Shown here piece after piece: positions 1,905 to 63,710 of a stretch of 64,000 bases of DNA. Position 1 is the stretch's first letter, and each line of letters starts with the position of its first letter. Source of the DNA: Acanthococcus lagerstroemiae (lineage: Eukaryota; Arthropoda; Insecta; Hemiptera; Eriococcidae); the NCBI GenBank assembly GCA_031841125.1, contig CM063106.1:39242001-39306000 (forward strand). The letters are read 5' to 3'. The notes under the pieces are model-generated. The model saw only the letters and a program-made list of their open reading frames with translations, was not told the DNA's origin and did not search any database. Position numbers and translations under genes: made by a program.

Positions 1905-4803
1905 TTTTTTTTTTTTTTTTTTTTAAATTTGTTTATTGTTTATTTTCAACAATAAGGAGATTAACTTAACAAATACTTATTTCTTTACGAGGAGGTAGCC
2001 CTTTTACCTTGCGGTTTATCAGAGCTACCTCCATGTGAGTTCGAGTATTACATATTTCTTATGTGCTAGGTTTCGTTTTTAATAATATTGTTACATTCTT
2101 AACATAATTTTTAAAATCTTTTTTGTTCAAGGTTGTGAGGTCAGTCATTACTAAGTTCATCTCATGTCTCTGGATTGTGTTTTGAAAGAAGGTGCAGTTT
2201 TTTATGTGCATTGGGTTGTCTGTTTCATTTTGGTTGCAGTTTGTGCAAGTACTGTCACTTTTTACTTTAATTTTGTCTGTTAAATATTGGTTGAAGTTGC
2301 CGTGTCCAGTCAAAAATTGAGTGAAGTAAAAATTTGTTTCAAAGTAAGTGCATTTTAGCCGGTTGCGAATGTTGGGTAGAAAAAGTTTTGTTATTTGTCC
2401 AGTTTCTGCTTCATTATATCTAATCTGCCATTCTTGGGTTATTGTTTCTTTAATTTTGAGTATATTGTCCCTGGTGGTTTGTCTGGAGTGTTTGTTTTTA
2501 TTGTGTTCGATTTTTACTTTCTTGATCATATTTGTCTGTTTAATTTGCAGATCAACTGGGAGAATTCCAGCGATCACATTTGTAGATGAAAAAGATATAG
2601 TTTTATAACCTGAAATTATGCTGATCAAGATGTGTCGTTGTAGGCTTAGTAACCTGCCTGTAGTTATCTGAGTAATATTTTTTGCATAGGATAATGAAGC
2701 ATATTCAGTTAGTGATCGAAAGATAGCATTATATAGGGTTATTCTGTTTTTGAAATCATATCCATAGGTATTTCCGTAAAGCGCGCGGAAGGTATTAAAG
2801 TACTTCTTTGTTTTAACTATTACATTTTCAACATGTTTTGAAAAGTTTAAGTTCTGGTCTATAATAACGCCAAGATATTTTAATTCAGGTTTTATAACTA
2901 AGACTTTATTATTGATCTTAATGTGTTGTAGTAAGCTACTTTCAACTTCTAATTTATCATATTTTTTGGACAATAGTACTGCTTGGGTTTTTTCTTCATT
3001 TATGTTCAATCCTAATTTTTTAATACTATCGTTTATGTTCTTAATGCAATGGTTGATGAGATTGAATTCAGAACCATTTGTTCCAATAATTAACATTAAA
3101 TCATCAGCATAACTTAAAAGCCGTACATTATTAAAAGAAGGAAAGTTATTATGAACTGAGGACATGGCAACATTAAACAGGAGTGGGCCAAGAACAGAGC
3201 CCTGTGGTACGCCGGATTCAAGTTTCTTATTTACGGCGACATTACCTTCAGGAGTGTAATAATTAACTGCTCTGTTCACCAAAAAATTCTTTGTTAGGAT
3301 AAGCAATTCATTTGGAACGCCGTTTCTTTCTAAAATTTCAAGAATACTAGACCATTTTATTTTATCGAAGGCACCGGAGACGTCAAAACTGACTAGAAGA
3401 ACATGTCTAGTGCGAGATTGAAATAACTCAATGATTTCGATTAGTGTACTAATTGCATGTTCTGTCGATTTGTTCTTTCTGTATGCGTACTGGTTATCGT
3501 TGTATATTGAATTCTTCTCGATTTCGGCCTCTAAGAGAGATTTAATGATCTTTTCGTAGACTTTTCCTATTGCAGGTAATAAAGTGATGGGTCTGTAAGA
3601 TAATGGATTCGTTGGGTCTTTGCCTGGTTTATTTAGTAATTTAATTTTTCCTGTTTTCCAGGAAACAGGAAAATATAGAAAGTCTAAACATCTTTGAAAG
3701 AGCAAATCAAAGAAACCAGGAAGGTGCTTGTGAAAGATTTTAACCATTTTATTTGAAATTTCGTCGTGTCCATTTGCTTTCCTGTTGTTTAGGTTTTTAA
3801 TTATTTTTGTCAATTCTATAGAGTTAATTTTGTATTTCTGAGTGCAGTTATTCGGGTAGTCTTGAATTATATCATTGATTTCTGGAAACATGGTGGAAAA
3901 AATACATTCGTATTTTTTACACTCTTCGAATATTGTCTTACCGTTGAAATTTAAAGGTGGTATTATTAGTCTTTTGGTTTTGCAAGTTACAATTTTATAA
4001 GGGGTTCCCCAGGCTTTAGACGATTTGACCAGTTCTTCCCAGGCCTTTGTTTTTGCAGTCATTATATCATTTTTATACTTCTTACGTATTAGATTCAATT
4101 TTGTTTTGCAAGTTTGGTATGAGATCAAGTTTTGATCTTTTAGTCTGTGAATTTTACGAGTTAAAGTCTTAATTTTACGTTTGGTTTTATCAAGTTCATT
4201 GTTCCACCAAGTTTTGGACTTGATTTGAGTATGTTTGGAGCACTCCGTTATTAGCTGTCTGAGCGTTTCATTGAAATTCGAAATTATTTCTTCTAGTTCC
4301 TGATGATTGCTACATTCCACAAGGAGTTCAACGTATTTCGCGAAATCACCATGTGTAATTTTTTCGGTTAGTATCTTATAGTTTATGGTTTTAATCTGTC
4401 TGGTTGTATTTAAGTAGCCGGGATTTCTAATTGATTTGTGGACGAGCACAAAAGTAACCTTTTTATGTGGAGAAAGAGTGGAGTCTGTGACAGCAAAGTT
4501 TGATATTTTATTGGTGATTTCGGGGGTTGTAAGGACTAAGTCTATTATGCTGTTTCCATTACTGTTTTGGAAGGTATATTGTCCATACTTATTATGTATT
4601 GCTAGATTGTTTTCAAAAATAAATTTTTCAAAATATTCTGTTCTCCTTTTAATGTTGCTATAAACGCTGTCTTTAATTTTTTCTAGCATCTTCGTTCTTA
4701 CATTGAAGTCCCCTAAGATAAGTAGGTTTTTTGAAGTTCTGTTCCTCAATAAGGAATCAATTTTGTCTACTTTGGTTTCTATCATTACTGAAGGATCTTT
4801 ACA
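1905..4803 (-). mobile_element. 5'-truncated R1-like non-LTR retrotransposon
   Basis: On the minus strand the element runs from about 4803 (5', truncated inside the endonuclease) to a 20-base T run at 1905-1924 on the plus strand, which is its 3' oligo(A) tail. A 3' untranslated region of about 134 bases separates the tail from the stop codon of the long ORF (2059). Truncation at the 5' end and an oligo(A) end fit target-primed reverse transcription. I could not find a clear target-site duplication. In the same frame there is a stop at 4804-4806, and reading continues beyond it for about 20 codons, so the true junction could lie a little upstream. No rRNA sequence flanks it, so it is not at the 28S site used by canonical R1. 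Confidence 0.85.
2059..4785 (-). CDS. R1-like retrotransposon ORF2, partial: endonuclease end, reverse transcriptase, zinc knuckle
   Basis: A 908-codon open frame. Residues 25-30 read GDFNVR and a following S-I-I-D-L motif near residue 78 belong to the AP-like endonuclease; its first ~100 residues are missing. The reverse transcriptase spans roughly residues 376-640, with YRPI, an F-D-V-S-G-A-F-D block near 467, GVPQGSVLGPLL near 525, and the catalytic YADD at 559-562 (bases 3111-3100). The C-terminal part has QR..L.....GYKT.S......AGILP-type wording typical of the R1/I group, then HGNFNQYL and a CX2C...HX4C zinc knuckle at about 841-858. There is no RNase H domain. The annotated Met is internal to the family protein and probably not a real start. 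The frame carries no stops or shifts over 2.7 kb, so the copy is young or under selection. LOA or I clade is the main alternative. Confidence 0.88.
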   Translation of the reverse strand: MIETKVDKIDSLLRNRTSKNLLILGDFNVRTKMLEKIKDSVYSNIKRRTEYFEKFIFENNLAIHNKYGQYTFQNSNGNSIIDLVLTTPEITNKISNFAVTDSTLSPHKKVTFVLVHKSIRNPGYLNTTRQIKTINYKILTEKITHGDFAKYVELLVECSNHQELEEIISNFNETLRQLITECSKHTQIKSKTWWNNELDKTKRKIKTLTRKIHRLKDQNLISYQTCKTKLNLIRKKYKNDIMTAKTKAWEELVKSSKAWGTPYKIVTCKTKRLIIPPLNFNGKTIFEECKKYECIFSTMFPEINDIIQDYPNNCTQKYKINSIELTKIIKNLNNRKANGHDEISNKMVKIFHKHLPGFFDLLFQRCLDFLYFPVSWKTGKIKLLNKPGKDPTNPLSYRPITLLPAIGKVYEKIIKSLLEAEIEKNSIYNDNQYAYRKNKSTEHAISTLIEIIELFQSRTRHVLLVSFDVSGAFDKIKWSSILEILERNGVPNELLILTKNFLVNRAVNYYTPEGNVAVNKKLESGVPQGSVLGPLLFNVAMSSVHNNFPSFNNVRLLSYADDLMLIIGTNGSEFNLINHCIKNINDSIKKLGLNINEEKTQAVLLSKKYDKLEVESSLLQHIKINNKVLVIKPELKYLGVIIDQNLNFSKHVENVIVKTKKYFNTFRALYGNTYGYDFKNRITLYNAIFRSLTEYASLSYAKNITQITTGRLLSLQRHILISIISGYKTISFSSTNVIAGILPVDLQIKQTNMIKKVKIEHNKNKHSRQTTRDNILKIKETITQEWQIRYNEAETGQITKLFLPNIRNRLKCTYFETNFYFTQFLTGHGNFNQYLTDKIKVKSDSTCTNCNQNETDNPMHIKNCTFFQNTIQRHEMNLVMTDLTTLNKKDFKNYVKNVTILLKTKPST

Positions 4804-29923: not shown

Positions 29924-32269
29924 TATTTCACATTTTTCAAAATTGGTGGCTTATTCTTCTCTGGGAACCAGCCAACCTACTGGCCTTCGGATTGGGAGAA
30001 AACACCCGACCTCATTGACTTCTTTGTCACCAAGAACGTCTCGACGAGATATCTAGAAATAAACGACTACGCTGATCTTTCCTCCGATCATTCACCTGTA
30101 GTCTTAACTCTAAGCGAGAAGATACTGCTAAAGAATAAAACAGTGAAACTCACCAGTAAACACACTGACTGGGATAAAATGCGCGAACTAATAGACGAAT
30201 CTATTAACCTCAGAATAAAATTGAAAACACCCTCAGATCTTGATCGCGCAGTCGAAACCTTTACCTCACTCATCGTCGAAGCAGCAGCAAACGCTACCCC
30301 GGTTCAGAACACTGTTGCCAATCGAGAAATCCTGTATCCAAAACATATAAGAGAAATGGTTCGTAAAAGACGAACAGCACGCAAGTTGTGGCAGCGCACA
30401 CGAAACCCAGCGGATAAAACTATCTTCAACCAAGTGAGCAAGCAGACTTCTGAACTGATACGAAACTTCAATGAGAGTACGTTAAACAATTACTTATCTG
30501 AACTTTCGCCCAAGAAAGAAAACGACTATACGTTATGAAAAGCCACTAGAAGGCTGAAACGCCCACAAGTTACTCAAGCACCTATCCGAGACGAGAGGGG
30601 ACACTGGATAAGGAGCGACAAGGAGAAAGCAGAAGCCTTCGCAAGATACTTCGCGATCACTTTCCAGCCAAATAATATAGACTCACAGGTTGAAATCACG
30701 ATCAATCCTAAAGACGATGAACATATCCAACCATTCACACCGAAAGAAGTTGCTGCAGCAATCGATGAACTAAATGTAAGGAAAGCTTCTGGAGTTGATA
30801 AAATAACAGCGAGGATACTACAAGAATTACCGAAGAAAGCAATCATCTTCCTCGTCTACATCTTCAATGCCATTGTAAGGATAAAGTATGTCCCCGACTC
30901 ATGGAAGCAAGCATTGGTCATACTTATTCTGAAACCAGACAAGCCGCCAGATGAACCTCAGTCGTATAGACCGATTTCGCTGCTCACAGCTCCCAGCAAG
31001 CTATTCGGAAAATTGATGCTAAAACGAATCAAGCCTCTAGTCGAACGGGAAGATGTTATTCCTAACTGGCAATATGGCTTTCGCAGCAAACATTCCACCG
31101 TCGACCAGATTCACCGAGTAACGAGATTGATTGAAAACGCCATGGAGAATAAGGCCTACTGTCCGGCGCTGTTCATAGACATCGAGAAAGCCTTCGACCG
31201 TGTTTGGCATGGCGGCCTGCTGCATAAATTGAGTACATTTCTCCCTGGAAACTACCTCGAAATCCTGAAATCATACCTCAGCGATAGAAGCTTCAGAGTA
31301 CAATACAATGATGCTCTATCAACTACGTCGACCATTGGAGCAGGCGTCCTACAAGGCAGTATCCTGGGGCCTTTGCTCTATCTAATTTACTCCGCAGACA
31401 TACCAGCAACAACCTCAACCACAACAGAAGTGGCGATGTTCGCGGATGACACCGTTGTATTAGCAGTGAACCAATCTTACGAACAAGCCGTCGCGGAACT
31501 GCAAGTTGCAGCTGACCAAATCTGTAAATGGGCACAGACGTGGAAAATCAAAATAAATGATACAAAATCGGTCAGAGTCGATTTCACGCTTCGTTCACAC
31601 CCCTACGTACCAACGGTCGTAAACGAGAAGTTTATTCCGAGAAGCGATGCGGCAAGATACCTGGGAATGCATCTCGACAAACGACTAAATTGGAAAGTCC
31701 ATGCGAAAAAAAAAGAAACGAGCTGAACCTGAAGCTACGAAAATTATATTGGCTAATAGGATACCGTTCTCCTATCAGTGTAGCCAATAAACTGCTACTG
31801 TACAAGACGATCCTAAAACCCGTATGGTCTTATGGCCTACAGACTTGGGGTATGGCTAAGAAAACAAACCGTCAGGTAATACAGCGATACCAGAACAAGG
31901 TCCTGCGACTGATTGTAAAAGCGCCTTGGTACGTGCCCAACGCGCTCCTACACCGTGACCTCAAAATCCAAGAAGTAGACGATGTGATAAAGAAATACGC
32001 GAGAAGCCATGAAGACAGGCTGCACAAGCATCCCAACACAACGGCGATCGAGCTTTTGGATACCTCTTTAGACACAAGACGGCTAAAAAGAACAAAACCC
32101 TACGAACTAGTTTAGTTAGCCTAAGTTGTAACATCAGGACGTTTTCCGTCATTTTTGATTTCTAGACGCTAGTCTAAGTCATAAACACTGCGATTTCTGT
32201 ACTACTTATATCAAAATTATTCGTGTATGCCAATTGGCAGTTCAATAACAATAAAGAGAAAAAAAAGTT
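29924..32269 (+). mobile_element. 5'-truncated Jockey-clade non-LTR retrotransposon
   Basis: The element begins within the endonuclease (about 29924-29950), carries the reverse transcriptase and C-terminus, then a 3' untranslated region of about 145 bases ending AACAATAAAGAG plus an A run (32261-32269). The clade is shown by NQPTYWPSDWEKTPDLIDFF and the C-terminal RYLGMHLDKRLNWK. No target duplication was found. It lies 568 bases upstream of the Copia element. Confidence 0.9.
29948..32115 (+). pseudogene. Jockey-type endonuclease/reverse transcriptase, one stop and one frameshift
   Basis: The endonuclease end shows PTYWPSDWEKTPDLIDFF and SSDHSPVVL with the S-D-H catalytic motif. A TGA at 30536-30538 interrupts the linker at a place where the family has Trp. 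The reverse transcriptase follows: SYRPISLL, FIDIEKAFDRVWH, GVLQGSILGPLL (Leu where Pro is usual) and catalytic FADD at 31439-31450. A one-base shift in a nine-A run at 31706-31714 moves the C-terminal part to another phase. That part reads WLIGYRSPISVANKLLLYKT, then WSYGLQTWG, APWYVPN and RRLKRTKPYELV and ends at its natural stop (32113-32115). It lacks the N-terminal ~150 endonuclease residues and ORF1. Only two disabling changes in 2.1 kb imply a fairly recent insertion, or a sequencing slip at the A run. Confidence 0.9.
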
Positions 32270-32831: not shown

Positions 32832-32836
32832 ATTTT

Positions 32837-33105
32837 TGTTAGAAACTTCATACCTTAGCCTAGTTTCTAGATTATATGCGCGCGCACCCGCAGGTCCCGT
32901 TGACACTCGAGCTACGCGATAGATGCTCGTATTCGTTTCTCCCAAATTAGTTAGTCTAGCCAGGGTTGTTATTCAGCACGCGTTGTTGCTGTATCGTCTC
33001 GGGCCTGCCCTTACTCGTTGATCTCACCGAGGAGGGTCGTTCGTGTTCTATATACACGCACTGCCTCTGAGGGAGTACATAAACATGGAGCGATATCCTC
33101 CAACA
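32837..33105 (+). repeat. Copia 5' LTR (269 bp)
   Basis: Begins TGTTAGAAAC and ends CCTCCAACA, so has TG..CA ends. It matches 42057-42328 at every base except three one-base indels (a CA/C repeat near 32885, a G after ATTC near 32935, and a G in the GGG run near 33001). A TATATA box at 33049-33054 is the probable promoter core. Confidence 0.95.
33049..33054 (+). promoter_or_regulatory. TATA box in the 5' LTR
   Basis: TATATA lies 51 bases before the LTR end, with the expected start of transcription some 25-30 bases downstream. It is retained identically in the 3' LTR. Confidence 0.5.
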
Positions 33106-33117
33106 TGGTAGCAGAAC
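33106..33117 (+). promoter_or_regulatory. Primer-binding site
   Basis: TGGTAGCAGAAC directly follows the LTR with no spacer. It resembles the TGGTATCAGAGC used by many Copia elements and presumably pairs with a tRNA 3' segment. Confidence 0.75.
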
Positions 33118-33302
33118 GTTTTGGTGACGATCCTACGATCGTAATCGGAATTTGGATGGTTTTGGAATTTTATTCTTGGCTTGATCACCCAGGATTGAAT
33201 TTCGGTCCTCCAAATATTTCCGAAAATTCACCTCTACACGTGTTGAAAATTCTCTGGGACGCCAGAAATTTCATGTAGCTCCATGGTAAAAATATGTGCT
33301 CC

Positions 33303-33741
33303 ATGCTTGCCGATTTTTCATTTTTTGAAATACAGGCTAAAGCAATAAATTGTGCATATGCTGATATGCTTGCCGTTTTTTTCATTATTTGAAATATAGG
33401 CTAGAGCAATACATTTTGCTCATCCTGATATGCTTGCTAATTTTTCATTTTTTGAAATACAGGCTAAAGCAATAAATTTTGCATATGCTGATATGCTTGC
33501 CGTTTTTTTCATTATTTGAAATATAGGCTAGAGCAATACATTTTGCTCATCCTGATATGCTTGCTAATTTTTCATTTTTTGAAATACAGGCTAAAGCAAT
33601 AAATTTTGCATATGCTGATATGCTTGCTAATTTTTCATTTTTTGAAATACAGGCTAAAGTGTTAAATTTTGCATACCCTGTTATGCCTGCTGATATTTAA
33701 TTATCTGAAATACAGGTTAAAGCTATATATTTTGCTTCTCA
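33303..33741. repeat. Copia leader array 1: seven 63/64-bp units
   Basis: Units start ATGCTTGC at 33303, 33366, 33430, 33493, 33557, 33620 and 33683 (periods 63, 64, 63, 64, 63, 63). Two unit types alternate: one has GTTTTTTTCATTATTTGAAA and CTCATCCTGAT, the other ATTTTTCATTTTTTGAAATA and GCATATGCTGAT. They form a 127-bp higher-order repeat (33366-33492 and 33493-33619 are nearly identical). Confidence 0.9.
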
Positions 33742-33844
33742 AAGCAATACACGCGCGATCACTGACATCTGATTGCTCTTTCAAACAACTAAGTAATCTG
33801 CGAATAAAATTTGCTGGACTGATAATGGTACCAGTGAAGCACTT

Positions 33845-34760
33845 CTCATATTTTACCGCTGTTGGCTGGTCCAACGTGCATTTATTATATGACGACAGTG
33901 TGCTCAAAATTAATTCGCGTCTCATATTTTACCGCAGTTGGCTGGTCCAACTTGCATTTATTATATGACTACAGTGTGCTCAAAATTAATTCGCGTCTCA
34001 TATTTTACCGCAGTTGGCTGGTCCAACTTGCATTTATTATATGACGACAGTGTGCTCAAAATTAATTCGCGTCTCATATTTTACCGCAGTTGGCTGGTCC
34101 AACTTGCATTTATTATATGACGACATTATGCTCTATAATTAATGAGCGTCTCATATTTTACCGCAGTTGGCTGGTCCAACTTGCATTTATTATATGACGA
34201 CATTATGCTCTATAATTAATGAGCGTCTCATATTTTACCGCAGTTGGCTGGTCCAACTTGCATTTATTATATGACGACATTATGCTCTATAATTAATGAG
34301 CGTCTCATATTTTACCGCAGTTGGCTGGTCCAACTTGCATTTATTATATGACGACAGTGTGCTCAAAATTAATTCGCGTCTCATATTTTACCGCAGTTGG
34401 CAGGTCCAACCTGCATTTATTATATGACGACATTATGCTAAAAAATTAATGAGCGTCTCATATTTTACCGCAATTAGCTTGCCTAATTTGCATTTATTAT
34501 ATGATGACATTATGAGTAATAATTAAAAGCACGTCTCATATTTTACCGCAGTTGGCTGGTCCAACCTGCACTTATTATATGGTGACTGTATGCTAAACAA
34601 AGAAAAAAACAACACGTCTCATATTTTACCGCTGTTGGCTAGTTCCGACTTGCACTTATTATATGGCTACAGTACGTGTACATGCTCCACAGTACGAGCA
34701 TGTCTCATATTTTACCGTGGTTAGCGTGCCGCCTGTACGTAAGGTATCTAACTCACATTT
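33845..34760. repeat. Copia leader array 2: twelve ~76-bp units
   Basis: Units begin CTCATATTTTACCG at 33845, 33921, 33997, 34073, 34150, 34227, 34304, 34380, 34457, 34535, 34618 and 34704. The core is GTTGGCTGGTCCAACTTGCA then TTTATTATATGACGAC. Two subtypes alternate in blocks: GTGTGCTCAAAATTAATTCG and ATTATGCTCTATAATTAATG. Each unit carries the inverted pair TCATAT...ATATGA. Identical 60-codon frames here are products of the repeat. Divergence increases to the right. Confidence 0.92.
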
Positions 34761-35310
34761 TATTATATGAGGTTGACATGTCAAACACCAGTATACTGAT
34801 TATATTGCTGTCAATATAATACTTAGCGCAACTACTTATGGCTCATATTTTACCGTGGTTAGCGTACAGCCTAAACATAATGTATCTAACTCACATTTAT
34901 TATATGAAGCCAACATATAAAATACCATGTACATTCTTAATATTGCTGCTAATATAAGATGTACCTAGCGCATGTAAAATACCATGTACATTCTTTATAT
35001 TGCTGCTAATATAAGATGTACCAAGCACATGTAAAATACCATGTACATTCTTAATATTGCTGCTAATATAAGATGTACCTAGCGCATGTTAAATACCTAC
35101 ATTCTTAATATTGCTGCTAATATAAGATGTATGTAGCACATGCCGAACACTAGTGCACTCATATTTTACAACAAAAAACTTTATATATAATATATATATT
35201 ATACTTATCACAAACGGCTCGTATGTTACCGTGGTTAGCATACAGTCTAAACATAATGTATCTAACTCACATTTATCATATGAGGCCGACATGCCGAACA
35301 CCAGTATCAA
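34761..35310. repeat. Copia leader array 3: long units with 57-bp sub-array
   Basis: Two further, longer units of the array-2 type begin at 34842 and 35218 (TACCGTGGTTAGC then CATAATGTATCTAACTCACA). Between them a 57-bp unit, CATGTAAAATACCATGTACA then TTCTTAATATTGCTGCTAAT, repeats at about 34914, 34971, 35028 and 35085, with a shorter last copy. (TA)n lies at 35186-35202. Confidence 0.85.
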
Positions 35311-35945
35311 CGAGAATCAGTATTCAGAGAAATTTTCTCAAATGATAACTGACCTCTGTACTGCATAAATAGTAATCCTCCCTATTGGCAGTATCTAATA
35401 CTTATGTATTTAATTGATACCGAGGGAATGAATTGATGTTTCTAAATGGAATTATTCTTCCATCCTTGGTCTCCATATGATGCATTGTTTTAAAGAGGAA
35501 TAGCATTCGTTCATTCTTCTACACCTATTATAAAGTCGACTATAAAAATACATAAAATTACACTCTAAGGGAGTCCATGAATGCTAATGTCGTGGTTAGC
35601 TACTCAAGATTTGTACATTGAACACGTTAAAAGCCAAACTTGAATTTCACTTTTGAAATTAAAATAGGCTAAATTAGTTCGAGAGCGAATGGAGACATTC
35701 ACAGTAACACACAAAGCACCACAGGCAAGGCCAGTGGTCACCAACACGGCACGGTAGATGCCGGAGAAATTCTTTGTTTTCTTAAGGAACTGAAGTGTTG
35801 CTGGTCTTATTTACTACCTGGGGCTGTACGGCCCACTTAGACCTTCAACAGATGAAATCCTATTCAGTATTCACAGTATATAGGTATTTTTTCCAACATA
35901 CTGTGAGAAACTGGTAAAATGCCTCAGTCTATTGAAGCATCTACG
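35311..35945. other. Copia leader, unexplained segment
   Basis: About 630 bases with no recognised motif or repeat, inside the LTR element, between the satellite arrays and a tandem duplication. Confidence 0.5.
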
Positions 35946-35950
35946 TATTT

Positions 35951-36322
35951 AGAGCGACCTAAAGGTTAATAGACTTGTTTCTGTTACGAAATACACACCG
36001 AAATGTAAAAGACATTCGATGCCAGTCTATTCCGCACTCAGCGAGCTTGTTCTGTACCTAAAACAGTGACCAGATACGTGACGCAAACAATAAACCTCGC
36101 ATTTGCGAATTCGCGTTATTCCGCAGAAATTTGAATAGTAAAAGTCAATAGACTCGTCTTTGTCGCGAAATACATGCCCAAATGCAAAAGACATTCGTGC
36201 AGTCTGCCCAGCATTCAGTTCTCTTGTCCTGTTTACCTGTCAGCGACCAGATTACCTGACGCGAACAATAGACCTCGCATTCCCGAAGTCGAGATATTCT
36301 GTGGAAATTTGAATAGTAAAGA
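35951..36322. repeat. Tandem duplication of ~185 bp in the Copia leader
   Basis: The copies at about 35951-36136 and 36137-36322 share GCGAAATACA-, AAAAGACATTCG-, GACCAGAT-, GACGC(A/G)AACAATA-, ACCTCGCATT- and AAATTTGAATAGTA-containing segments, about 80% alike by eye. Frames at 36145-36470 are by-products. Confidence 0.75.
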
Positions 36323-36494
36323 AACCGGCTTGGTTTCATCCCCTTGCACCTATTACGGGAGGTGCGGTACACCATTTAATTTCTCCCTGTTTCGTGGAGA
36401 TTCTGGAGAATTGGAAGAAAAGAAAACACAAAAAGATCTTCGCCATACAGCGTTCTTTCAATCTCTCTGAATTCGAATACACCAGATTGCTGGA

Positions 36495-37430
36495 TATTAT
36501 CATCATCATCATCATCAAGGTTATAGTCCGTAGCAACTGTCTTGGCTTCTTGTGATGACTTTCCATGCCTCTCGGTCCTGAGCTATGGCAGCTACCGCTA
36601 CAACCAATCTCAGTCGGATCCGAATGCAATCCGTCCCCTGTATTGGCGACCTTCTTCTGTCCCACCTACTTGGCATTTTTTTTCGAGCATTATGTTTCGC
36701 TCCAAGTTTTCGCTATTTCTGAGGGCAATGCGTTCGATATAGCTCAGGATTTTTCTTTCCCATAGAGCACTTAGCCTTTGTGGCTTACTCAGCTCTGCTA
36801 TTATAGTCGCATTTGTTCGCCGCATCGTCCGCGGGATTCGAAGCATTTTGCGCCACCAGGTCCATATTTTGAAGGCTCCTACTCGTATTACTCTCTTATG
36901 TTCTTGTTTTAGTGCCAATGTTTCTGCGGCGTACAAAAACACTGGAAATACAAGTGTCTTCACTAATTTTTCGGGTAGTCTTCTTGAGATCTTGCAGCAG
37001 CATGCGACATTTTATAGATAGTCGTATCATTGCTGATTTTCCTAGCTGTATCTTGCATCGAATTTCATCGGACAATCCAGCCGCGCAGGTCTTTCCCAAG
37101 GAACCCAAGTATACAAAACTTACTATACTTTCTCGAATTCATTCAGCAGGTCCTTCAAGGCTGACAGCCAGTCTGCTCGATAACCATCTTTTTGGTTTTG
37201 GCTGCACTGATGTGTAACCTAAGTTGTTCACTCATCATCTTCAGTTTTCGGATGAGTTCTTTGCCATCTCTGTTTCATCTGCTCCAAATAATGAGGTATC
37301 ATCAACGTATTAGAGATTTGCTGGGTATATTGCTGTGAAAATATTTCTAGTCCGGCAGCTGAATTTTTCTTTCTTGTATGACGACGTTCGATATCCGCCA
37401 TGAACAAAAACACTTCTAGTTTCGACTAAA
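36495..37430 (-). pseudogene. RTE-like LINE fragment carried inside the Copia element
   Basis: On the minus strand the reverse transcriptase catalytic box reads YVDDTSLFGADETEMA (YVDD at 37309-37298), followed in shifted frames by EIRCKIQLGKSAMIRLS and then LVFPVFLYAAETLAL, VGAFKIWTWWRKMLRIPRTM and RRTN. This is the C-terminal half of an endonuclease-reverse transcriptase of the RTE/craniofacial-development-like kind. The 3' end carries CGGACTATAACCTTGATGAT and further GAT units (about 36497-36520), a simple-repeat end typical of RTE. At least three frameshifts are present. It is 5'-truncated near 37320-37430. It lies in the Copia leader, before gag. Confidence 0.8.
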
Positions 37431-38033
37431 TGATGTTTTTTTTGTGAACCATTCGAATTTTTTTTTTGCGTTCATACTGCGAAAACAATTGGTCTCGGTC
37501 AGTCAAACTTTACTTTTGTACTTTTTGTAAATCATGATTGATAATGGAATGGATATTGAAATCTCTTAGCAGGATATCATCGATCTACTTGAGAACGATG
37601 AAGAGGAACGTCCTTCTTGCTGCGAACGGGGGTCACTTTGTGAGCGCATTACAAGAACCCCCAATATCGCCGTACAGGAATATCTTAGTTAATGAGATGC
37701 TCTCGGCAAAAATTGCGGGAATGATAATGACAATGAAGGCTCCACTAGTAGCCCTCAATGCCACCTGCCGGCGTGCTAGCAGCTAGAAGAAAAGCTGGAC
37801 AAATGTAACTGCCGCTATGGCACAGCCTGGCAAGAGCTGCAAGCTAGCACAAAGACCAGCTTCACTGAACGAAATAATTCTTCGCTGCAATTGGCAAGGA
37901 TACGACCTCTCTCGGAGGCGTGGTAGACGCCACCAGCTACAGTGTTCATCGACATACCAGACCATCGTCGGGAATCTGCTTTCGCTAATGCAGGAGCACA
38001 TGAGCCAAAAAGAAGTTAAACCGTAAGCTCACA
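37431..38033 (+). other. Copia region expected to hold gag, unrecognisable
   Basis: By position this should encode the capsid part of gag. Short frames (37538-37786, 37817-38026) give no capsid motif that I recognise. One frame contains DIIDLLENDEEERPSCC. Several stops occur, so the gene is decayed beyond recognition or replaced by other sequence. Confidence 0.4.
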
Positions 38034-38312
38034 TGTCCGCACTGCCCGAACGGTAAGCACACCTGAAGAGTGTCATTGTAAAACAAGCCCAAAATATAAG
38101 GCCGTTAATGTGTGGGTAACCTGCATCTCGCCCCCTGTGAGTTGGTCCTACCAAATTGAAACAGGCACAAGGGCCATCATGGGCAAGGAAGCTGACGCGG
38201 CGGCCGGAATAAATCCAATCCCCGTGAAGGGAATGAAGCTGACCAGCGGATTGATTAGAAGGACTGGAATAACGGCGGTAAACGCAGCAGAAATTCGCGT
38301 CGTTGCGATCTG
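38034..38312 (+). pseudogene. Copia gag zinc knuckle remnant
   Basis: TGT at 38034, TGC at 38043, CAC at 38058 and TGT at 38071 are the four ligands of a CX2CX4HX4C nucleocapsid knuckle. The last interval is two bases short, so the final Cys is in another phase. The second frame then stays open to about 38312 (reading WVTCISPPVSWSYQIETG and on) without a recognised protease motif. The knuckle would bind the element RNA in a working Gag. Its spacing is the clearest sign of gag left here. Confidence 0.6.
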
Positions 38313-38599
38313 ACTGACCCAAAAGCATTTCCGTTATCCGATTCAGTAGCGAACTATGCACTGACATACAAAGCTGGAAGTCCTTATGAGTCAACAAATT
38401 TTCAGTAATTCTATGAAAGTATGAGTAGACTCGGATTGAACCTTGCTTCTGGTAAATGGAAGCAACTGCTTTCAAATGTTCACGCCTCTTGGCCAATCCC
38501 AAAATTGGTAGTAGATGCTATAATAGCGATCGTCTACCAAAATATTCATAAAAGAAAGCGAACGACTCTTTCCTATAAGTTAACAGACGAAAATCTTAC

Positions 38600-39110
38600 G
38601 TAAGATTTAGACAGTGATCTGCCTGAAGTCTGTGAGAACCTGCTTTCTGTAAAGAAGCTGACAAACTTAGCGCACTTGTTTCATTTCTTTAATGATTCGA
38701 AACACATGGCTAAAAAAAAAAAAAAAAATCTATAGTTATCCATCAGATATACAGTCAGTTCTTGATGCAATATCTGACTGAGAGATATGGTACTTTAATC
38801 TGAATCCTGCTATAACGTCAAATGATAGTACACTAGTTCCAAATTTGGGGGGGAGCTCTTTAAGCCTCTCAGTGGAACTATCTTGTACTGGTGCTAGTTC
38901 GATTATGCGAATCACCTACGATGTAGTTCGAACTCACGCCGAGCTGAAAAATTATTTAAAAACACAACTCGACGCTTATGGCATTTACGATTCGGTCGTC
39001 CGAGTCTTAATGCAATGAATGAAATGCAGAATATTGTACCTAAACTGCAAGGAAAATCGTTTCAACTTCAATTGCAGATTGTTACGCTTCCAAAATTTGT
39101 ATAGCTACAC
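38600..39110 (+). pseudogene. Copia protease/integrase linker and zinc-binding region remnant
   Basis: One frame reads LPEVCENLLSVKKLTNLAHL (about 38620-38680), matching the P.....NLLSV.KL motif that lies between protease and integrase in Copia Pol. About 300 bases on, HLRFGRPSLNAMNEMQNI begins at 38982, the H-R-x-G-H-type start of the integrase zinc-binding domain, with Arg where the second His is expected. The protease active site was not found. A 16-A run at about 38714-38730 and several stops separate these parts. Confidence 0.7.
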
Positions 39111-39133
39111 AGAAGCTCCACAATACGATACGA

Positions 39134-39760
39134 AGAGGTGCAGATCGGCCATTGCAACATTTGCATACCGATGTGCAGGGTGCGATATTGCCAGAAGCCT
39201 TTCCTGGAGGCGAGCAATATGTTATGTGTATAATTGATGATTTCTCTCGTTTTGGTTTCGTATATCTTATGAAAACGAAACAGCAAGCGCATGAGAGATA
39301 TGAAAAATTTATTGTTTTTATAAGATATAATACATCATATAAATTCCGTATCGATAAAATCCGAATGGATAATGGACAGCATATAAGATCTCTAAGTTTG
39401 CTGCCTGTTTGAATAAATATAATACTCACACTGACATGGCTCCACTTTATACAACCCCCCCCCCTCAATGGGGTGGGGAGCAATTTCATCAAACCATTCA
39501 ACATATAGCCTGATTCATGCTTATTGATTCTTGGCTTCCTAAACTAATGCGGGGCCATGCTATCAAGTATGCTACGCAACTGTACAAGGTACTTCCCAAA
39601 TATCTGTCTGTAACTCAACCATTCAATTTGAGTTGCTATTCAGATATAAGCCCCAGCTGAAATATTTCAAACGGTTTGGCTGCTCAGCCTACGTTCTATT
39701 AGCACAACAAGTTGGAAAATTCTAAAATGGGGGAGTTCGAAAATTCTACGTAGAAATTCA
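39134..39760 (+). pseudogene. Copia integrase core remnant
   Basis: The frame from 39152 reads HLHTDVQG (Asp at 39170-39172), GGEQYVMCIIDDFSRFGFVY and RMDNGQ (Asp at 39368-39370), the first two catalytic positions of the DDE integrase. A C run at about 39457-39464 shifts the phase, after which WGGEQFHQTIQHI preserves the third acidic residue (GAG at 39478-39480). Further on, in other frames, KYFKRFGCSAYVLLAQQ matches the integrase C-terminal KRFGC.AYV motif. At least two stops and two shifts break it. In a working element this enzyme inserts the cDNA. Confidence 0.85.
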
Positions 39761-39879
39761 GTCGAATGCAGTCTTAACGCTGCAAGTTCCTTCGGGGAAA
39801 ATTTCCCCTATATGAGACGTTATACCTTTGCTGAATCTCAAGTCTAAGGCCATTTTTATAGTCCTTTTGAAAACACAGC

Positions 39880-40400
39880 ATTTAAAGACCCAATTGTAAT
39901 TCAGCGTAAATCTCTAAATTGGTTTAATCCAAGAGATGCCGAGAAACTGGAAAGTCAACTCTTGGCTGCGAAACGATCTCGTACATCTGAATTGATAGTT
40001 GAACTCCCAGCAGATGACATTGATGACTGCCTCGTGTCCACCTATGACAAGTCAAAGCCAACCAGGGTCTTCTCTGACCTCAGTACCATAAAGGTAATCA
40101 TACCGTATTCAGAACTTCCGATGCTTTCACCATCTATTACTCATGACTAATCTTCAAGATTATGGAGTAACAAAAGCTCAAGCTCTCGTTTCAAAAGCTC
40201 AAGCTCTCATTCCAAAGACGAAAGCTTACATTGCCTTTATAAAGCGTCATCACATGACTCAGTCACTAGACTCTCATGTACAAACAGACACTAATTGTTC
40301 AATTTTCCTCATCTCTCTAGAAAAGGAATGGCATTGAATGAGTTTCCTGCACTTATCACTCATGATAGGTACTGCTAGAATCGAGAATATACAATATATA
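39880..40400 (+). pseudogene. Copia Pol inter-domain linker remnant
   Basis: Two open stretches (39962-40150 and 40143-40337) lie between integrase and reverse transcriptase. The first is acidic and Ser-rich as usual for this linker. Near 40170-40205 a (T/C)CAAAAGCTCAAGCTCTC unit is directly repeated. Confidence 0.5.
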
Positions 40401-40429
40401 AAGAAGCATTGCGTTCGCAGTTTGCAGCC

Positions 40430-41090
40430 AGGTGGCAGTAGGCGATGAAGGAAGTATATTTCAAGCTCTAGATAAGACTAGAACTTGGTCAATCGCATCA
40501 ATTGAGAATATTCCAAAATAGTTTTCCCCAACTGACTCAGCTTGGGTCTGTAAAAGAAAACATGAAGCGAATAATGATGAATGGTACAGAGCTATGCTTG
40601 TTGGTCGAGGTTTCGAAAATATGTACTAACGTGTATGATGTATCAAACACTTATGAGCCAGTTACTGGAATTACTGACATCCGTTGACCGTTGTCACAAG
40701 TAAATAGGCTCAGTTTAGGAACTAGGCAATGGGACATAAAAACTGCTTTTCTCCACGATGTTCTGGAAAACCCTCTGCGTGCCTATATGAGAATTCTAGA
40801 AGGTCATTCAGACTATACCAGACTATGATTGGAGACAAAAACCTCACGTATGTGAATTGCATAATTATCTGAATAATCGCAGAGTCTTATCACAACGTTG
40901 GTTTGAGAGCGGACTACAATTGAGAGACTGGAGTTCAAACCATACCTACTGGCTGAAGCCTGGGGTACTTCTCTATAGAAAGATTACTTTGTAATCCTGA
41001 TTCTGTACATAGATGGCTTACTCCTTATCAGGTATTGTCCTGACAAGGGTAGAGAATTATAATCGGCTAGATATTTCGTTTCCTGCGAAT
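40430..41090 (+). pseudogene. Copia reverse transcriptase remnant
   Basis: Pieces in shifting frames follow the Copia order: SAWVCKRKHEANNDEWYRAM then LVGRGFENMY (the W-V-x-K-x-K...K-A-R-L-V-x-x-G-F motif, with changes), WDIKTAFLHDVLENPL at about 40732-40780 (the D-V-x-T-A-F-L motif with the first catalytic Asp), and LYIDGLLLI at 41003-41029, where the catalytic YVDD has become YIDG. The loss of the second Asp alone would inactivate the enzyme. Many stops and shifts occur. Confidence 0.85.
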
Positions 41091-41319
41091 GCGGTCAGCC
41101 GGGCCCAAGTGTCACTAACATGCAGGGACTGAGAAGCCGTGACGAGAATATTATTTTAATATTTACTTCACCCTCGCTCCCTTGGTGGCGTTTTGTAACT
41201 AGTGATTCTCGGTTTAAAAAAAAAAACAAAAAAAAACACGCTTAATATCAGAATACGTTGTTCTCCTGTTCGGAGATTCGGAGATGTAGTAGCTTAGCGT
41301 TTTAAAAAGCAAACTCATA

Positions 41320-41770
41320 TTGCTTTGTAAACTGCTGAGGCTGAATATACTCGTATATTGCTGCAAGCTTTATTTGTTGGCAACCGGTATCAGTCAGAGA
41401 ACGAGAACTAGTCAAATTTTTATTCAGAGTTCACAATAGGTATTGCAATGTTTACACTCTTGCAAAATTATTGAAATTAAAATCGCTAAAACATGTACCT
41501 AGTTGAACTATGTTTTCATTACTTGAAATTTAAAGTTTTCGCTGGTCCTGTAACCATCGAGTGGATAAGTACTACAAAGCAAATGAGCAGACATATTGAC
41601 CAAAGCATTACCCGCAAAATCGTTTATCGAATTTAGAGATGCATTGGTACACTGTCCCCCTACACATATGCTCAGTAGAACACTTCCATATGAATGTTCT
41701 GACACAAGCCTTTACTTGATGTGGGATTTCTCCATTTATAGTGTTTCACAATATGAATGAAACTTGACAA
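41320..41770 (+). pseudogene. Copia RNase H remnant
   Basis: TAEAEYTRILLQALFVGNRY at about 41331-41390 matches the S-T-A-E-A-E-Y motif of Copia RNase H, and MSRHIDQS near 41583 matches the later K-H-I-D motif. The intervening sequence is broken. Between 41090 and 41320 lie an A-rich stretch and no motif. Confidence 0.75.
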
Positions 41771-42044
41771 GAAGCTGAATTTATTAGTTAAAAACCACTA
41801 CTATATAAGTTTTAGAATATAACTTTAGTGTAATGCTTATTTTAAGAATAGTAAATATTATTTCAGTTTAAGCTACCTCAAGTATTTTATTAATCAGCTC
41901 ATGTAGGAATGATTTCTGTCACTTAGTGACTATTAATCAATTCCATTATTCTCATTTGAGATTGCTTGTTGGAGAACCACATAAAACATTCCAATTCAAC
42001 CCCTCAACCAATCTCCCTGCATGGGTAAAACTTGGTCCTCGGCT

Positions 42045-42056
42045 GAGGGGGGGGGG
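42045..42056 (+). promoter_or_regulatory. Polypurine tract
   Basis: GAGGGGGGGGGG abuts the 3' LTR at 42057, the position of the plus-strand primer. The ten-G run is intact in spite of the decayed coding region. Confidence 0.85.
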
Positions 42057-42328
42057 TGTTAGAAACTTCATACCTTAGCCTAGTTTCTAGATTATATGCG
42101 CGCGCACACCGCAGGTCCCGTTGACACTCGAGCTACGCGATAGATGCTCGTATTCGGTTTCTCCCAAATTAGTTAGTCTAGCCAGGGTTGTTATTCAGCA
42201 CGCGTTGTTGCTGTATCGTCTCGGGGCCTGCCCTTACTCGTTGATCTCACCGAGGAGGGTCGTTCGTGTTCTATATACACGCACTGCCTCTGAGGGAGTA
42301 CATAAACATGGAGCGATATCCTCCAACA
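42057..42328 (+). repeat. Copia 3' LTR (272 bp)
   Basis: Same TG..CA ends as the left LTR. Three one-base insertions relative to it account exactly for the 3-bp length difference, with no substitutions seen. Followed by ATTTT. Confidence 0.95.
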
Positions 42329-42333
42329 ATTTT

Positions 42334-46826: not shown

Positions 46827-47065
46827 GAGCCTCTAACCTCTTTTCTATTTGCTCTCAACCCGACCACTGGAATCCGCCCTTTCGAGCATTACCTCAGAGA
46901 CGTCGAGAAGGCTGCTGGGGCTGTCTTAGTCCTCTTCTCTTCTTGCCGAAAACCCGGCCTAGGTCGAAATGTAGCGAGTTGCTACGTAGGCTCGAACCCG
47001 GGACCTCCGGATTCCGATACCAGCACGCTATCCACTCGGCCAACCAAACCCCACGAGCCTCTGAC
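46827..47065 (-). mobile_element. tRNA-derived SINE family A, copy 1
   Basis: On the minus strand the head reads GGTTTGGTTGGCCGAGTGGA (A box TGGCCGAGTGG) and about 40 bases later GGTTCGAGCC (B box), as in a tRNA Leu/Ser-like gene. A unique body of about 130 bases follows and an AAATAGAAAAGAG tail. Flanks GAGCCTCTAAC (46827-46837) and GAGCCTCTGAC (47055-47065) agree at 10 of 11 bases, a target duplication. The element itself is 46838-47054. A second copy is at 63497-63695. Confidence 0.88.
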
Positions 47066-54920: not shown

Positions 54921-54936
54921 GTGACATTTACATACA

Positions 54937-56444
54937 TACAGGGTGGTGCATGAGAACCCGCACCAATGTAATTTGCCCTATAGTGCGTGCTCAGGATGCA
55001 CCAGTGTATACGCAACGTGTTATATTATACAGGTGGACCATGAGAAAACGCATCAAATGTGCAAAACGATGAAATATTCTTCGGGGAAAATCTCCGATGA
55101 TTTCCAAGGAATTTTATCAGAAATCTTTTAGAACAATTTTCTGCAAAATTTTCCGATAATTTTTAGAGAATTTCATCGGAATATGTATTTAGGAAAAAAC
55201 TTCGGTGGTTTTTGAAGAATTTTATCGAAAATCTTCCGGGAAAATCTCCGATAATTTCCAAAGAATAATTTCACTAGAAATCTTTGAGAAGAATCTTTAA
55301 GGAATTTCATCAGACATTTTTGGGGAAAATATCGGTAATCTCCGAAGAATTGAGACTATTTTCCACTCATATGATGGGATCGGCGATTTTTCCCAAAGAC
55401 TTTTGATGAAATTCTTTGGAAATCGTTGGAAATTTTTTCTAAAGATTACTGATGAAATTCTTCGAAAATTAGCCGAGATTATTTTCAAATATTTCCAGTG
55501 AAATTTTTTGAAATTACAGGAGATTTTCCTCAAATATTTCCGATAAAATTCTTCTGAAATCCTAGGAAATTTTCGAGAAAATTATCCGCTGATTTCCGAA
55601 GAATTTCATCAAAAATCTTCTGAAAAAATCTCAGATCCGATCGCACGAGTGGAAAATAGTCTCAATTCTTCGGAAATTACGATGAAATTTCTTAAAAATT
55701 ATCGGTGGATCTTCTTGAAGATTTCCGATTAAATCCTTCGGAGATCATCGAGCATTTTCCCAGCAGATTTTCGATAAAATTCTTAAACAATCATCAGAGT
55801 TCCCGTCCCCATCTCCCTTTGAATATTTTCGATGAAATTCATCAAAGATGATCGACAATTTTCTCGAAGAATTTCGATAAAATTTTTTGGAGAACATTGG
55901 AAGTTTTTTCTAAAGATTTTCGATGAAATTCTTTGGAAATTATCGAAATTTTTTCCCCAAAAGTTTCTGATGAATTTTTTTAATTGAAATCATCGTAGAT
56001 TCTTCTCGAAAATTTCTTATGAAATTATTCTCAGGAAATTATCGAAGATTTTTCCTGAAGATTTTCAATAAAATTCTTCAAAAACCGTCGAAGTTTTTTC
56101 CCAAATATTTCGATGAAACTCTCTAAAAATTATCGGAAAATTTTCCAGAAAATTGTTCTCGAAGATATCTGATAAAATTCCTTGGAAATTATCGGAAATT
56201 TTTCCTGAAAATTGTTCTCAAAGATTTCTGATAAAATTCCCTGGAAATCATTCGAGATTTTCCCCGAAGATTTTCGAAGAAATTCTTCGAAAATCATCTG
56301 AGATTTTTCCCGAAGAATATTTCATCGTTTGTACATTTGGTGCGTTCTCTCAATCACCTGTACCTATAATACGTCGCGTATGCATCCTGAGCATGCACCA
56401 TAAGGCAAATTACATTGGTGCGAGTTCTCATGCACCACTCTGTA
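54937..56444. mobile_element. 1.5-kb TA-flanked foldback element filled with inverted minisatellite
   Basis: Left end CAGGGTGGTGCATGAGAACC (54939); right end, reverse complement, CAGAGTGGTGCATGAGAACT (to 56442), with TA on both sides. The arms pair over at least 150 bases, through CAATGTAATTTGCC, GTGCTCAGGATGCA and CGATGAAATATTCTTCGG. Inside, 45-60 bp units of GATTTTCGATGAAATTCTTT / GGAAATTATCGGA type fill both halves in opposite orientation, around a second inverted pair (GAATTGAGACTATTTTCCAC at 55346 and GTGGAAAATAGTCTCAATTC at 55650). No coding capacity: the F/S/E-rich frames are repeat products. The TA flank suggests the Tc1/mariner group for mobilisation. Confidence 0.88.
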
Positions 56445-56915
56445 TACCTGTCTAGCCTGGGAGAGACATATTTTTATTCGGACTCATTCCCATAGAAGTT
56501 TTTGGGCGGGATTCTGTAGTAAAAGAGGTCCTTATACAATGAATGTCCCACCCGTGCCTCCCACGGCGTTTCATGCTATTATCTCGCGAAATGTCGTGTT
56601 TTTTGGAAAGTTAGTTACTACATAAATATTCCCATAAAATTCCCTATCGAAATGATCATTAGGATTTTTTTTTTTTTCAAAAACCTGTCTTAAGTCCTTA
56701 AAATTACAATTTCTTCGAGGTAATATTTCACGCGCCGTTATATTCGATTATTTAGACTGCAGTAACTATGCGCTACGTTATATGTGCGTTACATTTTCAA
56801 CACTCCCGTTTAAAAACAAGTATTTCTCATGATGTTTTTTAAGGTCACTCTCTGATGTAGGTGCAAACAAATAAGAGAGGTGCAAACTGAAATGGAACGT
56901 ACATATGTGGCAGTG
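56445..56915. other. No feature recognised
   Basis: AT-rich spacer with a T run at about 56667-56678. Confidence 0.5.
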
Positions 56916-63496: not shown

Positions 63497-63710
63497 TAGA
63501 GGTCTGGTTGGCCGAGTGTATAGCGCGTTGGTCTCGGAATCCGGAGTTCCCGGGTTCGATTTCACGTAGCAACTCGCCAGATGTTCGACCTAGGCCAGTT
63601 TTTCGGCCAGAAGTGAAGCGGGCTAAGATAGCCGTAGCAGCCTCCCCGACGAAAGGGCGGATTCCAGGGCTCGGGTTGAAAGCAAATTAGAAAAGAAGTA
63701 TAGAAAATAG
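63482..63710 (+). mobile_element. tRNA-derived SINE family A, copy 2, with 15-bp duplication
   Basis: AAGTATAGAAAATAG stands at 63482-63496 and again at 63696-63710. Between them (63497-63695) the head has TGGTTGGCCGAGTGTATAGC (A box) and GGGTTCGATTTC (B box), the body includes CGACCTAGGCC, TTTTCGGCCAGAAG and CGAAAGGGCGGATTCC, and the tail is AGCAAATTAGAAAAG. Compared with copy 1 it lacks about 20 bases just before CGAAAGGG. A 60-codon frame here is a by-product, and this is not a functional tRNA gene. Confidence 0.92.

Follow-up and report, generated by a model that had tools for sequence, protein, structure and literature searches.

Young insertions and shared gag-pol decay in a Copia lineage of Acanthococcus lagerstroemiae: probable copying in trans

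How can a retrotransposon with a ruined gag-pol carry terminal repeats that look newly made? The question is raised by a 9.5 kb Copia element at positions 32837-42328 of the window studied here, a stretch of 64,000 nucleotides from Acanthococcus lagerstroemiae (assembly GCA_031841125.1, contig CM063106.1, positions 39,242,001 to 39,306,000 of the forward strand). Its two long terminal repeats (LTRs) end in TG...CA and differ by no substitution and three one-base gaps, and the ends, the primer-binding site (PBS) and the 5-bp target-site duplication (TSD) are intact, as a first-pass annotation of the same DNA had reported. Under a simple model, the lack of substitutions sets a 95% upper bound of 0.011 on the divergence of the pair, and about 27 LTR substitutions would be expected if 5% neutral decay had happened in place. 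LTR identity can date an insertion yet reveals nothing on the age of the interior.

In the assembly we find copies that share their ruin, have young LTR pairs and differ in their TSDs, together with an open-frame relative and mosaic copies. We consider it very probable that the window element belongs to an old Copia lineage, dead in its proteins and competent in cis, that was recently copied in trans, most likely by the gag-pol of a close autonomous relative. The first-pass annotation had likewise proposed a long-dead element copied by the proteins of a relative, and the shared ruin, the young LTR pairs and the open-frame relative support that proposal.

Shared disruptions and young LTR pairs

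We searched the 658-Mb assembly (438 contigs) with pieces of the element. The reverse transcriptase (RT) piece 40450-41340 was found nearly full length at 16 places with 89-100% identity (20 of 20 candidates scored), namely in the window and at 15 other places that carry the ruined piece at 89-98%, so a single-copy element, which would have spoken against copying in trans, is ruled out. Two further matches were partial (87-89%) and two places matched at only 77%. The search with the integrase piece gave 19 rows (19 of 19 scored), and the LTR search gave 40 scored matches out of 105 candidates.

Disruptions were sampled in five pol pieces that span 700 codons of the relative's frame. Gaps were placed by MAFFT and copies covering less than 70% of a piece were dropped, with 13, 14, 15, 16 and 16 of the 16 copies retained. 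Across these pieces the window copy is broken by 9 in-frame stops and 22 frameshifts, and its RT reads YIDG where the relative carries YVDD, both in line with the ruined gag-pol first described; part of the RT-RNase H region proved, by eye, to be deleted and not merely mutated. Each of the 31 disruptions is seen again in one or more other copies, sharing of the kind that the first-pass annotation had suggested looking for, and 29 of them in half or more of the other aligned copies. The aligned copies together contain 69 distinct disruptions, of which 33 are private to a single copy, none of them in the window copy. An insert resembling a long interspersed nuclear element (LINE) is shared as well. 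Of the other ruined copies, 14 include this region; all 14 have the 5' junction of the insert and 13 have the 3' junction, and the remaining copy, C4:33.42M, gave no match there. Sequence running across the RT-RNase H deletion was found in 14 of the 15 other ruined copies and in two partial copies; C4:16.42M covers that junction only in part. Since the window disruptions are all recurrent and the insert and the deletion are shared, the sampled decay predates the window insertion. From 38310 to 39209, compared in three successive steps of 300 bp with 240 bp or more aligned per step, no substitution separates the window copy from a copy on another contig.

Variable sites among the ruined copies fall on codon positions 1, 2 and 3 in numbers of 81, 100 and 99 (p 0.29), so they show no apparent sign of coding constraint; the RNase H piece supplies half of them (142 of 280). 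Fixed differences from the relative number 72, 60 and 98 (p 0.007).

The same comparison bears on the idea that the element is young and intact and appears broken through errors of assembly, to which the three indels between otherwise identical LTRs might point. The same disruptions, insert and deletion are present in copies on other contigs, on which ground we rejected assembly error, and window-wide indel errors are unlikely because a LINE frame of 914 codons is intact elsewhere in the window. This explanation can be virtually discounted.

Both LTRs were present in the fetched stretches for nine elements, eight ruined copies including that of the window and one short element described below. 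The LTR pairs have no substitution in seven of the ruined copies and in the short element, and one substitution in C7:44.69M; gap columns number three in the window copy and two in C3:15.02M. Perfect TSDs, all different, flank seven of the eight ruined copies and the short element. LTRs from different copies are 0-8 substitutions apart, some being identical in sequence, and the 12-base flanks differ among the paired copies. There are thus several young copies with common coding defects, as expected of a non-autonomous family.

Two readings would dispense with recent retrotransposition. In the first, the insertion is old and gene conversion has since erased the differences between its LTRs, an alternative that the first-pass annotation had named together with homogenised LTRs; potential conversion is reported for 25% of LTR pairs in a study of fifteen plant species (PMC7251063). 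Here conversion would need a separate event in each of the eight ruined copies, whose LTRs are 0-8 substitutions apart from copy to copy, and it leaves unexplained why none of the 31 window disruptions is private and why the LINE-like insert is also carried by copies that have separate TSDs on other contigs. We rejected it on the LTR pairs, the TSDs, the recurrent disruptions and the shared insert; it is not needed here and appears highly improbable. In the second reading, one dead element multiplied as DNA by segmental duplication, which would account for RT pieces 89-98% alike at 15 other places. The differing flanks, and the 5-bp TSDs that seven of the eight paired ruined copies have at their own LTR ends, led us to reject duplication, and we give it next to no probability.

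An open-frame relative and mosaic copies

A close relative, such as the first-pass annotation had suggested looking for, is located at C3:15019066-15037278. It has an open frame of 1850 codons with a CX2CX4HX4C zinc knuckle and YVDD, and its integrase likewise precedes the RT (RT motif by eye). Its LTR pair differs by one substitution, the TSD CCATT is present on both sides, and the PBS is as in the ruined family; no LINE-like fragment was found in the relative. A ruined copy (TSD GATAT) is inserted in this relative, upstream of its frame. With gaps excluded, identity between the relative and the window copy is 96-97% for the LTRs, 98.5% for the leader and 94.3% for an array block, and drops to 75-89% for the other interior pieces. 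The genome thus holds an element whose gag-pol frame is open and whose cis signals match those of the ruined family. The relative is the rarer of the two: a search with its RT (35 of 35 candidates scored) found this type at two places at least, the two sequences agreeing throughout 600 bases, together with at least 16 ruined places at 76-78% and at least 18 weaker or partial rows.

The second place with the relative's RT type is the short element, 3.5 kb in length and found at one place only. Its interior has 2 differences from the relative in 2779 sites. Its LTR differs from that of the relative by 8-9 substitutions, matching the family at columns 93-116 and resembling the relative at column 17, and its leader is of the family type at the sole clear diagnostic site. 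The short element thus combines a mostly family-type LTR with the relative's pol, and we infer that it arose by template switching between co-packaged RNAs; the alternative is an unsampled relative that carries a family-type LTR.

The window copy is itself a mosaic: along it, stretches closer to one ruined copy alternate with stretches closer to another (64 and 33 sites), giving 20 runs against 44.5 expected (z -5.59) in a test that used two reference copies of our choosing. In a stepwise identity comparison, the values for C3:15.03 at 35310-35910 were excluded as an artefact because the fetched stretch also contained the outer relative, and that part was masked in the mosaic test.

In the mechanism that we favour, a Copia lineage would have lost its coding capacity, acquired the LINE-like insert and deletions, and retained its cis parts, namely the LTRs, the primer site, the hairpin-array leader and the purine tract. 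Gag-pol proteins supplied from outside the lineage would package its RNA, presumably through the shared leader, and then reverse-transcribe and integrate it. The helper would most likely be the close autonomous relative, whose LTR and leader are nearly identical, and the relative or an unassembled sister of it is our candidate for the protein supplier. The window copy would be one recent product of this copying. Packaging of ruined and relative RNAs together would explain the recombinant copies, the mosaics presumably having arisen by template switching, and these could also come from gene conversion between loci.

Mobilisation in trans by a more distant Copia family, and not by the relative that nearly shares the LTR, has to be weighed in the same terms. 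The genome holds many distant Copia frames open over 1500-2100 codons, with integrases of 28-44% identity (150 of 491 candidates scored). On the other side, the close relative nearly shares LTR and leader with the ruined family, in a comparison that covers the LTRs of the close relative only, and an element mixing the two exists. We regard a distant helper as unlikely.

Several observations weigh against the preferred account of copying in trans by a close relative. Three indels separate the window LTRs, and one of the eight paired ruined copies, C5:36.40M, lacks a TSD. The paired set is made up of copies whose LTRs match well; for the eight remaining ruined copies, the fetched stretches contain no complete pair. 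The codon-position contrast between variable sites and fixed differences reaches only p 0.058. The single full-length relative in the assembly now carries a ruined copy upstream of its open frame, so it may or may not be active today. The leader barely separates the family from the relative, with one clear diagnostic site, and the many open frames of distant Copia elements leave room for help from another family.

Two of the unpaired ruined copies have poorer LTRs (94% and 82%), so older members exist and the family is not all young. C5:36.40M has identical LTRs and unlike flanks and perhaps recombined between two insertions.

If this account is right, the locus offers a resolved parasite-host pair of retrotransposons, with a mixed element and a parasite copy inside the presumed host element.

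Hairpin arrays in the leader

The leader contains tandem arrays in which a 77-bp unit folds as a stem (z -2.3). Folding energy alone is no evidence here, since z ranged from -0.2 to -2.9 over five other array stretches and from -1.1 to -3.0 over three controls. An anchor search found 118 hairpin anchors, of which 110 had the right outer arm and 8 were dropped; pairing of the outer stem is partly built in by the design of this search. The anchors number 14 in the leader of the window copy, 6-13 in eight other ruined copies, 7 in the relative and 0 in the short element, which has no array.

Pooling the hairpin units of the window copy, other ruined copies and the relative gave 26 distinct sequences, all of which entered the final count (22 in a first count). 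Inner-stem pairing holds in 94.2% of their cells and in 23-40% for slid versions of the stem. Four of the eight inner pairs have changed on both sides, in 25 cells as against 6.7 +/- 4.1 after shuffling (0 of 500 shuffles as high). Other measures favour covariation less: 41 of 500 shuffles likewise reached four double-changed pairs, all 500 exceeded the observed number of pair types, and in one slid version 2 pairs and 7 cells showed double change. The units are paralogues, so inherited variants are counted repeatedly, and the covariation supports a kept structure without measuring selection. DNA-level correction of hairpins could also yield compensatory changes.

A genome search with one hairpin unit gave 145 matches at 25 candidate places, 23 of which, in our sorting, adjoin a family LTR or fall within a family copy. 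At C1:21.26M and C1:25.87M, the arrays have no family LTR among the LTR matches scored. Six places (C3:16.50M, C17:58k, C2:38.26M, C2:39.41M, C1:70.53M and C1:7.475M) have a family LTR with an adjoining hairpin array and no full match to the RT piece; they are perhaps further truncated or deleted members.

The leader hairpin array with compensatory stem changes, present also in the relative, seems to be the most novel part of the system. Such changes in a non-coding lineage would point to a testable cis-acting RNA signal. We suggest, with considerable doubt, that the array could be a multivalent packaging or dimerisation signal, and that the ruined lineage might thrive by keeping or enlarging it in competition for the relative's Gag.

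Element features, neighbouring repeats and known systems

Table 1. Features of the window element; positions are those of the window.
Feature	Position	Strand	Basis or remark
Target-site duplication ATTTT, left	32832..32836	.	Flank comparison
5' LTR, 269 bp	32837..33105	+	LTR pair alignment
Primer-binding site TGGTAGCAGAACG	33106..33118	+	Directly 3' of 5' LTR
Leader; 191/194 aligned bases match relative	33106..33300	+	Alignment to relative
63/127-bp tandem array	33303..33735	+	Repeat search
77-bp tandem array	33844..34674	+	Holds most hairpin units
14 hairpin units TCATAT...ATATGA, compensatory inner-stem changes	33846..35283	+	Anchor search, covariation count
57-bp tandem array	34913..35142	+	Repeat search
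LINE-like fragment, ends approximate	36490..37440	-	Named by eye from frames
gag remnant	37480..38400	+	Zinc-knuckle remnant near 38033-38080 by eye
GAG-pre-integrase remnant	38949..39065	+	Pfam gag_pre-integrs 5.7e-5, below curated cut-off
Integrase core remnant	39143..39391	+	Pfam rve 4.3e-6, below cut-off; within uninterrupted piece 39044-39409
SH3-like remnant	39642..39713	+	Pfam SH3_retrovirus 1.8e-4, below curated cut-off
Reverse transcriptase remnant, YIDG vs YVDD of relative	40450..41040	+	By eye and alignment to relative
RNase H remnant	41300..41640	+	By eye and alignment to relative
Polypurine tract G10	42047..42056	+	Directly 5' of 3' LTR
3' LTR, 272 bp	42057..42328	+	LTR pair alignment
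Target-site duplication ATTTT, right	42329..42333	.	Flank comparison

The element has the TG..CA LTRs, PBS, polypurine tract and 5-bp TSD of a Copia (Ty1-like) element, and its integrase (Pfam) precedes the RT (alignment to the relative), as in the Copia order. The first 12 bases of the PBS are identical across the nine paired elements and the relative, and we take them to resemble the 3' end of initiator tRNA-Met. A purine tract is present as first annotated, the window form G10 deviating from the GGGGGGAG of the eight other paired elements and the relative. The best solved-structure match to the integrase piece was Ty1 integrase (E 0.13), and 0 of 12 candidate homologues of the 122-aa integrase piece passed E 0.001. 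Pfam gave no match for the RT and RNase H pieces, both of which were recognised by alignment to the relative, and no RT match for two tested pieces of the LINE-like fragment. Rfam at the gathering threshold gave 0 matches, a viral_contigs search with the LTR gave no match, and of 5 stretches matched there by an integrase pattern 0 were confirmed.

Elsewhere in the window, a LINE at 2059-4803 on the reverse strand has the 914-codon open frame, with RVT_1 (2.4e-37) and an endonuclease domain, and is possibly young. A second LINE at 29924-32115 on the forward strand, with open frames of 204, 395 and 184 codons, ends about 0.7 kb upstream of the element. For one of the window LINEs, the relatives recorded under an organism's name belong to a beetle, a spider and a fungus, and all are weak matches. 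Tandem and inverted repeats occupy 54936-56450, one inverted pair being 82% identical over 287 bp, and a dispersed repeat is found inverted at 46832-47050 and 63501-63704 (78% identical). Outside the window, C1:43908097-43909960 and C1:6560804-6562118 each contain two oppositely oriented family LTRs about 1-2 kb apart.

Large retrotransposon derivatives (LARDs) are large non-autonomous LTR elements without gag-pol. The likeness to LARDs drawn in the first-pass annotation extends to a large non-autonomous LTR element and stops at the interior, since the window element retains a decayed gag-pol. At 9.5 kb, it is likewise outside the miniature length of terminal-repeat retrotransposons in miniature (TRIMs). 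A narrow literature search, too narrow to show absence, found no insect Copia precedent, and one on arrays in leaders brought up two retroviral papers.

The kind of element is known already, from the non-autonomous sub-families of wheat RLC_Angela and from mouse VL30. Two other systems are described that resemble it in part. RLG_Cereba and RLG_Quinta were proposed as partners from common LTR parts, PBS and polypurine tract, as in our pair, and differ in that Quinta is proposed to still contribute Gag (PMC11302176). In grass endogenous pararetroviruses, which are not LTR retrotransposons, defective non-autonomous and autonomous partners are described as sharing noncoding regulatory sequence homogenised by recombination (PMC5491270). 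Mouse VL30, by its published description, combines intact replication signals, multiple gag and pol stops and trans-complementation, with identical LTRs in 42 of 86 full-length copies; it is retroviral, not Copia, and its helper is thought to be endogenous murine leukaemia virus (PMC4859993). The non-autonomous Copia elements of wheat RLC_Angela are reported to be sized like autonomous ones, with many frameshifts and in-frame stops in their coding sequences and with LTRs that cluster with those of autonomous partners, for which the authors suggest LTR transfer via gene conversion or template switching (PMC9744471). Unlike RLC_Angela as described there, the window family is non-plant, has few copies, and carries a LINE-like insert, leader hairpin arrays and a copy inserted in its relative.

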